Part shown: positions 18,496 through 23,209 of the stretch, piece after piece
Position numbering within the stretch: the first letter of the stretch is position 1
How the letters are laid out: every line of letters starts with the position of its first letter
From: Natronolimnobius baerhuensis
GTDB lineage: Archaea; Halobacteriota; Halobacteria; Halobacteriales; Natrialbaceae
Reading direction: 5' to 3'
Length of the DNA stretch: 64,000 bases
Assembly (NCBI RefSeq): GCF_002177135.1
Contig: NZ_MWPH01000001.1
Coordinates: 1,054,001-1,118,000, forward strand
Notes under the pieces: model-generated
The model's database searches: none
What the model was told of the DNA's origin: nothing
Seen by the model: only the letters and a program-made list of their open reading frames with translations
Made by a program: the position numbers and the translations under genes

Positions 18496-18699
18496 GGCGG
18501 CGTCAGCAGTGTCCAGTTGTGAAATCGTCGAGTCAATCACGGAACCAGTCCCGGACAGCACACGGGCTCGAGGTATCGACCGGACCGTTTGTTCGTCTCG
18601 AGTACGGCACGACTCGAGCAACCCCATCTCGAGACCTGTCACACGGAGCCGAATCACCCCACACACCAGTAGATATAAGTCACAACCAGTCAACAAATT
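18496..18699. other. Spacer before the structured RNA candidate
   Basis: No gene or transposase remnant is visible. It holds several CTCGAG hexamers and, at 18670-18680, an AT-rich GATATAAG that could be a TATA box about 25-30 nt upstream of the structured element. Confidence 0.4.
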
Positions 18700-18790
18700 A
18701 CACGGAAGCCGGTCTCCGCGGGGGTACGCAAATGCCCCGGGTGCTGAGACACCCGAGACGGGCTTCCAGCCGAGAGGCTTGAAGCCATGA
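18700..18790 (+). ncRNA. Three-way-junction RNA candidate, TnpB/IS1341-end-like
   Basis: Paired regions visible in the DNA: P1 18704-18716 with 18755-18767 (13 pairs, one mismatch); inside it P2 CGGGG 18719-18723 with CCCCG 18735-18739 and P3 (G)GGTG 18739-18743 with CACCC 18750-18754 closing a CTGAGA loop; after it P4 AGCC/GGCT with a GAGA tetraloop (18768-18779) and then GAAGCCATGAATCC. A TATA-like GATATAAG lies about 30 nt upstream. The 3' portion resembles the ends of haloarchaeal IS200/IS605-IS1341 elements that yield omega-type (reRNA) guides, but no tnpB is near. This identity is from memory of such elements and is inferred; an untranslated leader of the zinc-finger gene is the alternative. 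Confidence 0.5.
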
Positions 18791-18878
18791 ATCCGTACAT
18801 TCTACCGGGATATAAACATCCCGCACGAGTGACGTATCGACACGAATCAACAGCGACGGCTATCACGCTCGAGGAGCG

Positions 18879-19037
18879 ATGACGACTGAGAACGACACAG
18901 AGTCAGGCCCCTCGTTCCCCGAGTGTCCCACCTGCGGCGAAGCCGTCGTCGTCACCGTCGTCTCCGAGCCAGCCGTTGGCACCGCCAGCCCGTGTGGCTG
19001 TCGGGTAATTCCGTCCGCCCTCGAGTTCGACGAGTAG
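18879..19037 (+). CDS. 52-residue zinc-finger protein
   Basis: A short ORF begins at ATG 18879, preceded by GAGGAG four bases before. The product has an acidic Ser/Thr-rich N-terminus, then FPECPTCGEAVVVTV, then ASPCGCRVIPSALEFDE. The four Cys (two CPxC/CxC-type knuckles) suggest a zinc ribbon. Many such micro zinc-finger proteins exist in haloarchaea, mostly of unknown role. It lies about 90 nt after the RNA candidate and is convergent with the type IIG enzyme. T-runs at 19078-19083 and 19092-19097 may end its transcript. Confidence 0.65.
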   Translation: MTTENDTESGPSFPECPTCGEAVVVTVVSEPAVGTASPCGCRVIPSALEFDE

Positions 19038-19105: not shown

Positions 19106-22100
19106 CTACTCTCCAACAGCTTCCTCAACGATCTCTATTTCTTCCTCAGTCAGCCCGTACAACTCGTAGACGATTTCATCTATCAGCTGGTCCGTTTTCT
19201 CGATTTTCGCCTCGAGTTCCTCAGCGCGGGCTTTGGTCTCGAGGTAACTCTCGAGGCCGTCTTCGACATCTGCGACGGCGGGCAGGGTGAGCTTTTGGAG
19301 GCGATCCACGAGCGAGTTGGTCTTGGTTGCGGTTTCGCGGAAGTTGGCGAAGCCGCCGGCTTCATCCACGGCGACGGGGACGAACGCCTCGATCAGGTCG
19401 GCTTCGGTTTCGGTGAGGTCCGAAATTCGGAGTGCGGGTTCGAACTCGGTTTCGGTGTACCCCCAACGGTCTGTTTCATACTCGTCGTCGTTTTCTGGTT
19501 TGTAGCGCGCGGTGAGTTGGATCTCAAGACTAATCTCGGAATTCCGTACAACCTCAACGGAACCAACCCGCAAGTTCTCACGCTCTTCGGTAGTCTCGCT
19601 GAGGATAGAATTCGCTACTCCCTTTGGGGGTTCCACTAAGCCAATCTCATTCAGTGAATGACCATCCTCGAATGTACCAAGATGATCATGGATGTTTAAA
19701 TTCAAATCGTATCGACTATTCGACTTCTCCATTAAGTGTTTTCCAAGGCCATCCAATAGATCATGTGTTTCTTGGTTTTTCCCGATTGAATACTTCTTTT
19801 TCAAAGACTTCTTATTGTATTGTGTGATTGACTCGATATCTGGTGTGTTCTCTTCTTCTTCAAAGTCAATCGACGGAATCGGGAGAGAGCGAGTTTCCGA
19901 TAGAACAATTTTAGGGAAATCATCTCTCAGTGCCACTGCAGATCTCCGAACCTGATAATACGACAAAGCAGCTGAGTTCAGGATTGCCAACAAATACCCC
20001 GCCCCATAATGATCGTTATCTATCAGGATACTCTGGTGTGACTTGTTTGTGACGAAGTCCTTATCGGTGAGAACTAGCTGAAGTCTAAATTGCCTACTGA
20101 TCAATTCCCGTAGAATGAGTCGCTCACCAGTAAAGTATTTCTCTGGCTTATATTCAGCAATTCCATCATGGTATTCTACATATTGGTTGCCACTCACAGA
20201 ATATTTATAACGGCGAAGTTGGCCATCTAATCCAGTAGCATAGTCCTCTCCCCCATCATCAGTGAGATCAAATGGAGTTATTCCACGCTGAACATCTGCA
20301 ATTACAGACAGATCTATTCCGTTTCTAGCTATTTTCTCACTTATATCCAACTCGCTCTTATTCATATATGATAAGAAGCCATATTCGTTATCCGAATCAA
20401 GATGAGAAGAGAACCATCTAGAGTAATTCACATCCGAGGATTTCTCGGAATCATGGTCGATAGATGAGATGTTCTCTTTCCGGCCATAGTTTATTACAGA
20501 CAGAGAATCTGTGATATCTGGTGCAGTGCTTACTTGGTTAGATCGAGGGTATAAAATGAATACAGATGAGTCTACATATGCATCTTCGAAGACATCATAT
20601 GGAAGATTCACTATACTATTTAATCCGACATCATGAACCAACCATGATCTGAATTTACTATAATTGTCGGAGGTTTGCCACCCACTTGGGAGAATAAATC
20701 CTATGTAGCCGTTCTGAGTGCAGATATCGGGAGACAGTTTGGTGAATAGCGCAAATGTGTCAGTAGTCGACTTTGAAATAGAATAAACATTAGATGCGTA
20801 TTCAATGGTCTCCTCTCCCAAGTTTGCTCCCCAAGGCGGATTCCCAATCACCGCATCAAACCCAGCATCCGCTCGCTTCTCCCCATCCTGATCAAAGAAA
20901 ACCTCCGGAAACTCGAGTTCCCAGTGGAAAAACGCCTCGCCCTCAGCCATCGCCTGCGCTGATTGGAACCAGCCTTCCTCGCGCACGTCGGCCCACTTGT
21001 CTTCGTCGTCGATTGCACCCGCCATCCGCTCGTAGGCCCCCTCGGGCACGTCCAGATCGAATCGCTCCGCCGTGTGGACGTTCGTCAACTCGAACAACCG
21101 CTGGTAGAACGGATCGCTTCGCACCTCGTCGTACAACTCCTCCATCGACTTGATGTCCTCGAGCGTCTCGTTATCGATCTCGAGCAACTCCTGCACGCGG
21201 TCCATGACGTGATCGAGCGTCCGCTCACGAACACGGGCAAACGACTGCTGGAGCGTCAGTTGCCCACCGTCGTCCTCGGCGTCCGCACCGTTCGACAGCA
21301 CCGCCGTCACGTCCGACCCAACCAGCGAGTTGCCCGCCTTCAAGTGGTGGTCCAGAAACGCCAGCGGCTGATCCGCCGCGAGCGTCTCGAGCCACATCGA
21401 GAGCTTCGCGAGTTCGACCGCCATCCCGTTCAAGTCCACGCCGTAGATGCACTCCTTCGCCACGTCCCGGCGCACTCGCTGCTCGTCGAACGCCGTCGCC
21501 TCCTCGATCTCGCGCACCTCTTCCATCACCTGCTGAGCAAGATACTCCGTCGCCCGCGTCAGGAAGTGCCCGCTGCCCATCGCCGGATCGAGAATCGTCA
21601 GATCCAGCACCCGACGGTAAAACGCCCCGAGATACTCGTGCGTTCCCGTCTCGAAGCCCTGCTCCTGGAGGTCCGCCCGAATCTCGTCAATCAGCGGGTC
21701 GACCGTTTCCTCGACGATGTACGTCACCACGTAGTCCGGCGTGTAGTACGCCCCCGTGGCCTTGCGCTCGCCCTCGTCGTTGACGACATACAGCCCACCC
21801 GAATCGACGGTCTCGACCGCGTCCGCAACCGACACCTCCGTTGCGGGTTCCCAGACCTGCCCGCCATCTTCCGACACCGCCGCGTAGTCCTCCGGCGCGA
21901 TTCGGAACTGATGCTCGAGCAGTCCCTCGTAGACGCTGCCCAGATGCCGTGTATCCAAATCCGCGTAGTCGGCCAGCACGTACCGCCCCTCGTCGTTTTC
22001 GGTCGTCGAAATCCGGTAGATAACCTCCGCGAGATAGCGGTTGCTCACCTGATGGTTCGTCAGGAACTCGTGGTTCTCCTGATTGAACAGCCCGCCGTTG

Positions 22101-23209
22101 TACGGCGGAATCCCCAGCGACTCCTCGCCTTCGTCGACCAGCCGAAACAGATCCTCGAGCCGACTCCACATTGTCGTCGAGTGCTCGCTGTAGGTGTCGA
22201 AGCCGTCGTCAACCTCGCCGATTTCCTCGTGAATCTCGAGTCGCAGTTCGTTCAGGCTGAAGTTCTCCTCGTACTCCGTGACAGCGTCGCCACCCTCCGG
22301 GTGAATAAGCCCTCGCGACTCGGCGTAGAGGACGAACATCAGCCGGTACAGCAACACCAGCGACTGCTCTTTCAGCGCCCCGAGTGCAGCCGCATCGTCC
22401 GGATCGATATCGAGATCGTTCGTTTCGGCGAACCCACGCCCGAGCACCCGCAACGCGGTGAAGACGTTATCTTGCAGATCCTCTCCTAACTCCTGGGCGA
22501 CGGTCTCGCTTTCCGACCAGACCGAATCGAGAAACGTCGATCCCGAAGACTCCTGAAACGCCTCCGGTCGAAAGAAGACGTAGAAATATTTGAACGCCTC
22601 AAGGTTGCCGCGCTCGAGCAATGCAGGGAGATCGACCTCGTAGTACGTCTGCGTCTCGTAGTCGTTCGTCCCGTAGAGTCGCCACTTGCGCCCGTTCGTG
22701 AGCACGCCCCACTGAATCGTCTCGGGCGTCCGCTCGAGATAGTGTTTGATCTGGTGGGAGGCGTTTCGATACGGCCGCTGCTCACTAAACCGAGTCGTGA
22801 AGTCGGCATCCCACTGTTTTGCTTCCAGCAACCCAACTGCGCGTTCGAATAGATCAGTCGTGTCCTCGGTACTGAGGTACACTTCGGCGGCGTCTCGCCG
22901 ACTTGTCGAATCCTCGAAGAGCAGTTCGTCGACGTAGCCACCACCCTCCGGCAGCGTCGTCTCGACGTTCGTCCCGAACCCGAGCACGTCGAGCACCTCG
23001 TCGATCCAGTTGTCGATCAGCGCATCTTCCTTGTACCCATCCACCAGTCCGGACTCGAGGTCGGACAGCGACTGCAACTGCTCCATCGCTGCCCGCGCAG
23101 CCTCGTCACAGTCCCACTCATCGCGCTCCTGTACGCGCTCGTCGAGATAGTGTCCAGAGAAGAGATTCGAATTTGCGTATGGCCGATCCGACAGCGTCGC
23201 CTGACTCAT
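19106..23209 (-). CDS. Type IIG restriction-modification enzyme (Eco57I/MmeI-like)
   Basis: One 1367-residue chain appears to hold nuclease, methyltransferase and specificity functions. Near the N-terminus VDELLF (about 91) and LLEAKQWD (about 126-132) form a PD-(D/E)xK-type nuclease pattern. Methyltransferase motif I is DPAMGSGHFL (about 538) and motif IV is NPPW (about 790), an N6-adenine signature. The next 400 residues should be the target-recognition domain, and the end is a coiled coil. The stretch encoding about residues 800-1190 (19640-20810) is AT-rich and lacks CTCGAG, unlike both flanks, so the specificity part looks recently exchanged. No partner subunits, BREX or DISARM genes are adjacent; a solitary type IIG enzyme fits best. 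Confidence 0.85.
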   Translation of the reverse strand: MSQATLSDRPYANSNLFSGHYLDERVQERDEWDCDEAARAAMEQLQSLSDLESGLVDGYKEDALIDNWIDEVLDVLGFGTNVETTLPEGGGYVDELLFEDSTSRRDAAEVYLSTEDTTDLFERAVGLLEAKQWDADFTTRFSEQRPYRNASHQIKHYLERTPETIQWGVLTNGRKWRLYGTNDYETQTYYEVDLPALLERGNLEAFKYFYVFFRPEAFQESSGSTFLDSVWSESETVAQELGEDLQDNVFTALRVLGRGFAETNDLDIDPDDAAALGALKEQSLVLLYRLMFVLYAESRGLIHPEGGDAVTEYEENFSLNELRLEIHEEIGEVDDGFDTYSEHSTTMWSRLEDLFRLVDEGEESLGIPPYNGGLFNQENHEFLTNHQVSNRYLAEVIYRISTTENDEGRYVLADYADLDTRHLGSVYEGLLEHQFRIAPEDYAAVSEDGGQVWEPATEVSVADAVETVDSGGLYVVNDEGERKATGAYYTPDYVVTYIVEETVDPLIDEIRADLQEQGFETGTHEYLGAFYRRVLDLTILDPAMGSGHFLTRATEYLAQQVMEEVREIEEATAFDEQRVRRDVAKECIYGVDLNGMAVELAKLSMWLETLAADQPLAFLDHHLKAGNSLVGSDVTAVLSNGADAEDDGGQLTLQQSFARVRERTLDHVMDRVQELLEIDNETLEDIKSMEELYDEVRSDPFYQRLFELTNVHTAERFDLDVPEGAYERMAGAIDDEDKWADVREEGWFQSAQAMAEGEAFFHWELEFPEVFFDQDGEKRADAGFDAVIGNPPWGANLGEETIEYASNVYSISKSTTDTFALFTKLSPDICTQNGYIGFILPSGWQTSDNYSKFRSWLVHDVGLNSIVNLPYDVFEDAYVDSSVFILYPRSNQVSTAPDITDSLSVINYGRKENISSIDHDSEKSSDVNYSRWFSSHLDSDNEYGFLSYMNKSELDISEKIARNGIDLSVIADVQRGITPFDLTDDGGEDYATGLDGQLRRYKYSVSGNQYVEYHDGIAEYKPEKYFTGERLILRELISRQFRLQLVLTDKDFVTNKSHQSILIDNDHYGAGYLLAILNSAALSYYQVRRSAVALRDDFPKIVLSETRSLPIPSIDFEEEENTPDIESITQYNKKSLKKKYSIGKNQETHDLLDGLGKHLMEKSNSRYDLNLNIHDHLGTFEDGHSLNEIGLVEPPKGVANSILSETTEERENLRVGSVEVVRNSEISLEIQLTARYKPENDDEYETDRWGYTETEFEPALRISDLTETEADLIEAFVPVAVDEAGGFANFRETATKTNSLVDRLQKLTLPAVADVEDGLESYLETKARAEELEAKIEKTDQLIDEIVYELYGLTEEEIEIVEEAVGE

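Follow-up and report, generated by a model that had tools for sequence, protein, structure and literature searches.

A haloarchaeal RNA leader that probably switches genes of small zinc-binding proteins and of mobile elements on and off

The window analyzed here, a stretch of 64,000 nt from Natronolimnobius baerhuensis, contains a structured RNA element (positions 18700–18790) that we consider likely to act in cis as a switch of translation, from the 5' leader of an mRNA with two genes. Copies and relatives of this element constitute a real and widespread class of cis-regulatory RNAs, apparently undescribed, which probably serves as an on/off switch for small zinc-binding proteins and for genes of mobile elements. 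Sequence evidence supports the structure of the RNA, its two competing pairings, their joint conservation, and the two downstream ORFs with their overlap, and the switch mechanism is well supported by comparative evidence; what we infer is that the unit is transcribed, which of the two states prevails in vivo, in which direction it regulates, and that a ligand exists. According to the proposed mechanism, transcription would begin at or just before the stem P1, and the P1-P2-P3 fold would form an aptamer-like three-way junction. With P1 closed, the bases before the AUG would be free and a short basic ORF would be translated (the ON state), after which the ribosome would reinitiate at the overlapping start of a zinc-ribbon gene. 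With P1 open, its 3' strand would extend the hairpin P4 by pairing with the pre-AUG bases and so mask the start (the OFF state). A ligand or protein that reads the conserved junction and the P3 loop would bias the choice between the two.

The fold of the window copy is considerably more stable than expected from its composition: the minimum free energy of positions 18700–18800 (strand +) is -45.3 kcal/mol, compared to -33.8 ± 3.5 kcal/mol for dinucleotide shuffles (z -3.3; 0 of 200 shuffles as good), and for positions 18700–18840 the comparison with shuffles gives z -4.3. Stems P1–P4 had been read from the letters in a first-pass annotation of this DNA and are present as it described them, and the three-way junction that it described is borne out by folding (Table 1). 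3' of P4 stands GAAGCC-ATG (18781–18789), and the segment GAAGCCATGAATCC, taken in the annotation for the 3' end of the RNA, turned out to be the start-codon region of the short ORF.

Table 1. Features of the element and of the genes that follow it, in window coordinates
Feature	Positions	Strand	Basis and remarks
Promoter element CAGTAGATATAAGT, TATA-type, conserved	18667..18680	+	Motif count across copies
P1 5' strand, GGAAGCC	18704..18710	+	Folding, covariation
Inner stem GUCUC/GAGAC	18712-18716/18755-18759	+	Folding; closes junction of P2 and P3
P2	18721-18726/18733-18738	+	Folding, strand-swap test
P3, loop CTGAGA	18739-18743/18750-18754	+	Folding, covariation
P1 3' strand, GGCUUCC (switching strand)	18761..18767	+	Folding, strand covariation
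P4 hairpin, AGCC-GAGA-GGCU	18768..18779 (18768-18771/18776-18779)	+	Folding, swap test; formed in both states
Start strand GAAGCC, alternative partner of P1 3' strand	18781..18786	+	Folding, strand covariation
P5 hairpin, CGGGAU-AUAAAC-AUCCCG, within short ORF	18806..18823	+	Covariation
Short basic ORF MNPYILPGYKHPARVTYRHESTATAITLEER, 31 codons, stop 18880-18882	18787..18882	+	ORF translation; frame openness
52-aa acidic zinc-ribbon ORF (CPTCG..PCGC)	18879..19037	+	ORF translation; invariant Cys

BLASTN searches with a 111-base query revealed further copies in the same genome and in 39 of 100 relatives. A covariance model (R1), built from 32 copies, matched 78 of 121 Natrialbaceae genomes representing 24 of 29 genera; this family-wide search scored at most 26 candidates per genome, and a closer search of the genome with the highest copy number (G012) identified 33 matches. 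N. baerhuensis itself possesses about six copies or relatives (6 at E < 1e-5), which are diverged (76–87% over the shared core, ~165 nt long in the within-genome alignment of two of them). Among the matches listed in a pattern scan are members of Natrinema, Natrialba, Halovivax, Halopiger, Halostagnicola, Natronorubrum and Natrarchaeobius; two hits of the exact pattern in bacterial MAGs (L137, L160) were dropped as chance, because only the P3 core matched. From 189 candidates we parsed 169 distinct copies and rejected 20: in 12 no P1 3' strand could be recognised, 5 lay at the edge of a contig and 3 did not have the expected ATG. Of these last three, L144 has an ATG just outside the pattern, and L127 has a GTG at the start of its short ORF, a substitution to be expected if this is a genuine start codon. 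With a second model (R2), 18 of 40 genomes from the order, representing 14 of 28 genera, proved to contain relatives; in a sample of the phylum R2 matched 3 of 5 genomes of the same order and 0 of 36 genomes outside it. Copies are also found on plasmids, including one from Haladaptatus with 8 matches at E up to 0.05, and in one haloarchaeal virus contig. A weaker R2 match (G000:C4:217243-217394, E 1e-9) shows a different stem layout and lies upstream of an HTH-like ORF. Searches of Rfam 15 returned two tRNAs and nothing else for the whole window at gathering score, two sub-threshold hits and no family match for 18600–18900 at E up to 5, and one chance hit (E 0.29) for 20 divergent relatives; we found no description of the RNA in the open-licence literature that was searched.

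Covariance analysis revealed strong covariation across 84 relatives aligned with R1 (alignment A3). In P1, P3 and P5 taken together, 96.0% of cells are paired and 16 of 20 pairs show two-sided changes, with 0 of 500 shuffles reaching any of five measures; it should be noted that A3 is biased towards the structure of the model and that covariation tests of this kind are inflated by related sequences. P5 contributes 5 covarying pairs out of 6 (90.3% of cells paired in A3). RNAalifold on the MAFFT alignment A1 found a two-sided change in 4 of 19 pairs, few because loop lengths vary and A1 consequently misaligns P2 and P4. These two stems were therefore assessed by strand swapping, which in both of them favoured the native partner over exchanged ones (0 of 2,000 permutations for either stem). 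The core of the RNA is almost invariant among copies. As judged from these comparisons, the structure is under selection. P5 is located ~20 nt inside the ORF, with hardly any variation in its spacing from the AUG between unrelated ORFs (L302–L325), and in the same loci a NATCG box recurs ~50–60 nt past the AUG irrespective of the reading frame. Two copies from genome G012 (L089, L096) carry additional tandem hairpins within the P2 loop, which thus tolerates insertions.

The TATA-like box that the first-pass annotation had indicated upstream is real: a match to CAGTAGATATAAGT in at least 10 of 14 positions is present in 126 of 162 copies, as opposed to 1 of 162 control stretches, and in 122 of the 126 matching copies its end is separated from P1 by 23 nt. 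Given the usual spacing of archaeal TATA elements, transcription would be expected to start at or just before P1. The promoters of divergent relatives are unrelated to that of the window copy, which indicates that the RNA is a module of its own.

The central feature of the element is that the 3' strand of P1 is complementary to either the P1 5' strand or the bases before the AUG, and that these two pairings are mutually exclusive. Most copies show this complementarity between the P1 3' strand and the start strand, and over the 169 copies the duplex of the two has a mean energy of -11.1 kcal/mol, compared to -5.0 kcal/mol when the pre-AUG bases are shuffled; swapping start strands between copies costs only 0.25 kcal, because the copies have similar sequences. 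The differences that do exist among copies are coordinated: in all 8 copies whose P1 3' strand reads GGUUUCC, the AUG is preceded by ACC (omitting L250, one pattern hit of nine, which is without a leader), and the 165 copies with GGCUUCC have GCC in 144 cases, ACC in 9 and other triplets in 12 (Fisher p 3e-9 for the GCC/ACC cells, not corrected for relatedness). The P1 5' strand has changed as well in L177/L249 and L245. In the copy from the virus contig, the P1 3' strand has changed to GGCAUCC and the start strand, GAUGCC, fits this change, to the detriment of the match with the P1 5' strand.

Divergent relatives provide a more demanding comparison, with the P1 3' strand located from the P1 5' strand alone. 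For 39 divergent loci the mean energy with the own start strand is -10.80 versus -7.63 ± 0.36 with swapped ones, for a second set of 20 loci z is -6.5, and for the combined 55 loci (four near-duplicates having been dropped beforehand) the values are -10.97 versus -7.55 ± 0.31; z is -9.8 in those 34 of the 55 loci that have no GGCUUC in their P1 3' strand. In all four comparisons, 0 of 20,000 permutations reached so low a value. Examples of P1 3' strands and their start strands are GGUCUUCCA/UGGAAAGACC (L294), GGCGCUCGUG/CACGAACGCC (L295), GCUUCG/CGAAGC (L298) and GGGUUUC/GAAACCC (L287). One divergent locus (L257) shows no start pairing and several others rank poorly. On A3, the covariation score of the start-strand helix was equalled or exceeded in 6 of 500 shuffles, its number of pairs with two-sided change was matched in 235 and that of further pair types in 386, two-sided cells were matched in 0 of 500, and 78.4% of cells are paired, compared to at most 43.8% when the strand is slid; on this alignment the covariation of the start-strand pairing is therefore no more than modest by some of the measures.

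The two states are also predicted to be close in energy. Constrained folding according to rules for 37 C and 1 M salt, which are not those of the haloarchaeal cytoplasm, gives a median OFF minus ON difference of 1.1 kcal/mol (0.3 for the window copy), and the difference is within 5 kcal/mol in 125 of 153 copies, compared to 57 of 153 when P4 and the linker are shuffled. If pairing of the P1 5' strand is forbidden, the mean unpaired probability of the start region across 160 copies falls from 0.44 to 0.18, and to 0.37 with a control block; in the window copy itself, the control block cuts start accessibility as much as the P1 5' block does (0.25 vs 0.27). The competing start pairing, the other copies and the downstream ORFs have to be added to the interpretation offered by the first-pass annotation, in which they were missed and of which the three-way junction and the promoter stand.

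We found a covarying junction RNA in a 5' leader, with an exclusive pairing that reaches the translation start, and this is the layout of translational riboswitches, in which the helix P1 closes a conserved junction RNA and its 3' strand can pair alternatively with bases at the translation start, and in which ON and OFF folds have similar energy. The element differs from them in masking the start codon region itself rather than the Shine-Dalgarno sequence, in the lack of an Rfam match, in a structure that runs into the coding region (P5), and in the presence of tens of copies per genome. We therefore regard the design as that of a translational riboswitch, albeit a putative one. Few natural controls of the riboswitch type are established for archaea, and a Shine-Dalgarno sequence is absent from the start of many haloarchaeal mRNAs. 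According to PMC8241225, the fluoride riboswitch of Thermococcus kodakarensis was by 2021 the only archaeal one determined experimentally.

The genes downstream of the leader were counted in 159 of the 169 copies, those with at least 600 nt of downstream sequence. The frame of the short ORF is open over 18 codons in 158 of them, and the other two frames in 46 and 20. A small ORF with a Cys motif (zinc-type) follows the short ORF in 120 of the 159 copies and, by the pattern used, is absent in 39; its nearest ATG or GTG stands at -1 relative to the stop of the short ORF in 77 of the 120, with 23 more at -5 and 9 at -8, and in the window copy this ATG and the TGA that ends the short ORF overlap. 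In the set of overlapping stop-start pairs for which PMC6728339 gives results, coupling was strict in 9 of 9 pairs of Haloferax volcanii. The short product is very basic (median pI 11.6; above 9 in 140 of 145) and the zinc-type product is acidic (median pI 4.5; below 5 in 83 of 120), with Cys16, Cys19, Cys39 and Cys41 invariant in 30 aligned proteins. No Pfam or NCBIfam model reaches its cut-off in the zinc-type proteins. The predicted structure of the zinc protein is a small beta ribbon (pLDDT 75.5), whose fold matches in the PDB all have E above 0.2, and we therefore assign it no function. In the genus of G012, the place of the second gene is occupied by other small Cys proteins (ECYRC..CCEHCAAAMN).

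A small acidic zinc finger that overlaps a small basic protein, the arrangement found here (120/159; 77/120 at -1), is reminiscent of the Brz-Brb operon and the OE2447F/Bp4 and OE3131F/Bp2 pairs of Halobacterium salinarum, which the relevant sections of PMC3184054 present as a small zinc-finger protein with a small basic one. The likeness in layout and charge is closest for Bp4, which these sections place 5' of the acidic OE2447F, the two overlapping by 7 bp (PMC3184054). Brz and Brb act on bop transcription, and in the same sections no leader like that of our element is described for the H. salinarum pairs (PMC3184054). As for homology to Brz, the Pfam model Zn_ribbon_Brz gave E 0.041, below cut-off, in 1 of 6 proteins scanned. 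The proteins also resemble haloarchaeal zinc-finger micro-proteins of the HVO_0758 type, which in the account of PMC10716476 are small and have two Cys pairs expected to bind one zinc; they differ from these in having PCGC instead of CPxCG as the second Cys pair (PMC10716476), in being multicopy with an RNA leader, and in belonging to no Pfam or NCBIfam family at cut-off.

Behind divergent leaders we found genes of other kinds, namely those of SWIM proteins and PadR-like regulators, of tyrosine recombinases (integrases) that follow a short leader ORF, of Cys-rich proteins that precede a RAMP-like ORF, and of viruses. On a Haladaptatus plasmid, one leader is situated directly 5' of an annotated SWIM zinc-finger gene; SWIM genes in four other records (L328–L331) have no leader upstream.

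Other explanations of these data are less probable in our view. The two nearly isoenergetic states, which bulk conditions could shift, agree with a structured leader that tunes translation or mRNA stability only, by constant low initiation or by sensing temperature or salt in place of a ligand. A fixed tuning helix, however, needs no conserved three-way junction, no invariant closing pair of P3 and no competing P1 across distant families, which makes this reading doubtful, though it deserves serious consideration. Autoregulation, with the downstream basic peptide or the zinc-ribbon protein binding the leader and setting the choice between P1 and the start strand without any small-molecule ligand, would suit a two-gene unit with one very basic product (median pI 11.6) and one acidic product (median pI 4.5), and it would suit the nearly invariant RNA core, which one shared trans-acting factor could read in all copies. 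The same RNA architecture is nevertheless found in front of SWIM, PadR, integrase and viral genes, which encode unrelated products, so that the encoded protein cannot be the common regulator, and we find autoregulation rather unlikely. A primary-sequence search of the N. baerhuensis genome for mimicry of rRNA in the style of ribosomal proteins returned the copies of the element and weak short matches only.

The presence of 33 copies in one genome, on plasmids and in one viral contig might indicate that promoter, RNA and short ORF together form a small mobile cassette, which is propagated by copying and owes its conservation to transposition and not to function. This is very improbable, since the copies within the N. 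baerhuensis genome are diverged (76–87% over the shared core), compensatory changes are maintained across the family, the copies lie 5' of a gene with an overlapping start, and divergent relatives have unrelated promoters.

The reading of the first-pass annotation as an orphan guide RNA or a relic IS200/IS605 (TnpB) end, prompted by a structured RNA that is multicopy and dispersed, can practically be discounted, because the conserved promoter lies on its 5' side and coding sequence on its 3' side, and because neither the covariance model nor the 3' ends connect it with TnpB. The annotation was correct in that no tnpB is near: of 16 matches to TnpB domains in this genome, the nearest to the window copy is 68 kb away, and each of the seven listed copies or relatives of the RNA in this genome either lies on a contig that has no TnpB match or is separated from the nearest one by at least 37 kb. 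The likeness to IS1341 3' ends did not hold up, as R2 run without filters over the 16 TnpB loci found nothing (best E 0.95), blastn with word size 7 against the TnpB 3' ends gave a best E of 0.65 over 12 nt, and these ends, typically GGGAATCCTCGC..GCGGGGAGGATGTCA, are unrelated to the RNA element. Like the TnpB omega RNA of IS1341/IS605 elements, the leader is structured and multicopy in haloarchaea, but it has no TnpB, shared sequence or covariance match, and it is followed by a coding region and not by a guide. An orphan guide RNA and a solo IS605 relic were accordingly rejected, and of the three options put forward in the annotation a new regulatory RNA is the one that survives.

If the element is the translational switch that we propose, its distribution raises the tentative possibility of a first large riboswitch-like regulon in archaea, in which one RNA class with one ligand or host factor would gate the translation of dozens of small zinc-binding regulators per genome, and that of integrase, repressor and viral genes as well. 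A single intracellular signal would then reach haloarchaeal viruses, plasmids and chromosomal operons of micro-proteins alike; zinc or another ion is a candidate for this signal, since many of the controlled proteins look zinc-binding; the control of zinc micro-proteins would be linked to that of plasmid, integrase and virus genes. The RNA also offers a handle on the large and mostly unstudied set of haloarchaeal zinc micro-proteins, and its tens of copies per genome, the compensatory changes in three strands and the simple mask proposed for the start codon make it a directly testable system.

Several observations concern the neighbourhood of individual loci. In L284, L286, L289, L291 and L297 the leader is followed by a Cys-rich ORF and then by a RAMP-like protein, and in L281 another ORF takes the place of the Cys-rich one. 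The protein from L286, the sole RAMP-like one tested, gave E 0.0067 with the Pfam RAMPs model (below cut-off) and E 0.037 with PADLOC Csm3; these loci are possibly Cas7-like operons. SWIM zinc-finger genes are located near a gene of the TFIIB family on plasmids of Haloferax, Halorubrum and Haloarcula (L328, L329, L331), and on Haladaptatus plasmids such as NZ_CP085302.1, as many as 24 sites per plasmid are related to a single SWIM zinc-finger protein. Close to three copies (L017, L023, L028) there are AbrB-like and PIN-like genes, which we take to be of the VapBC type. In the window, the element is adjoined by an ORF of 1367 aa (19106–23209, strand -) with an NPPW motif, from which we presume it to be probably a type IIG restriction-modification protein.
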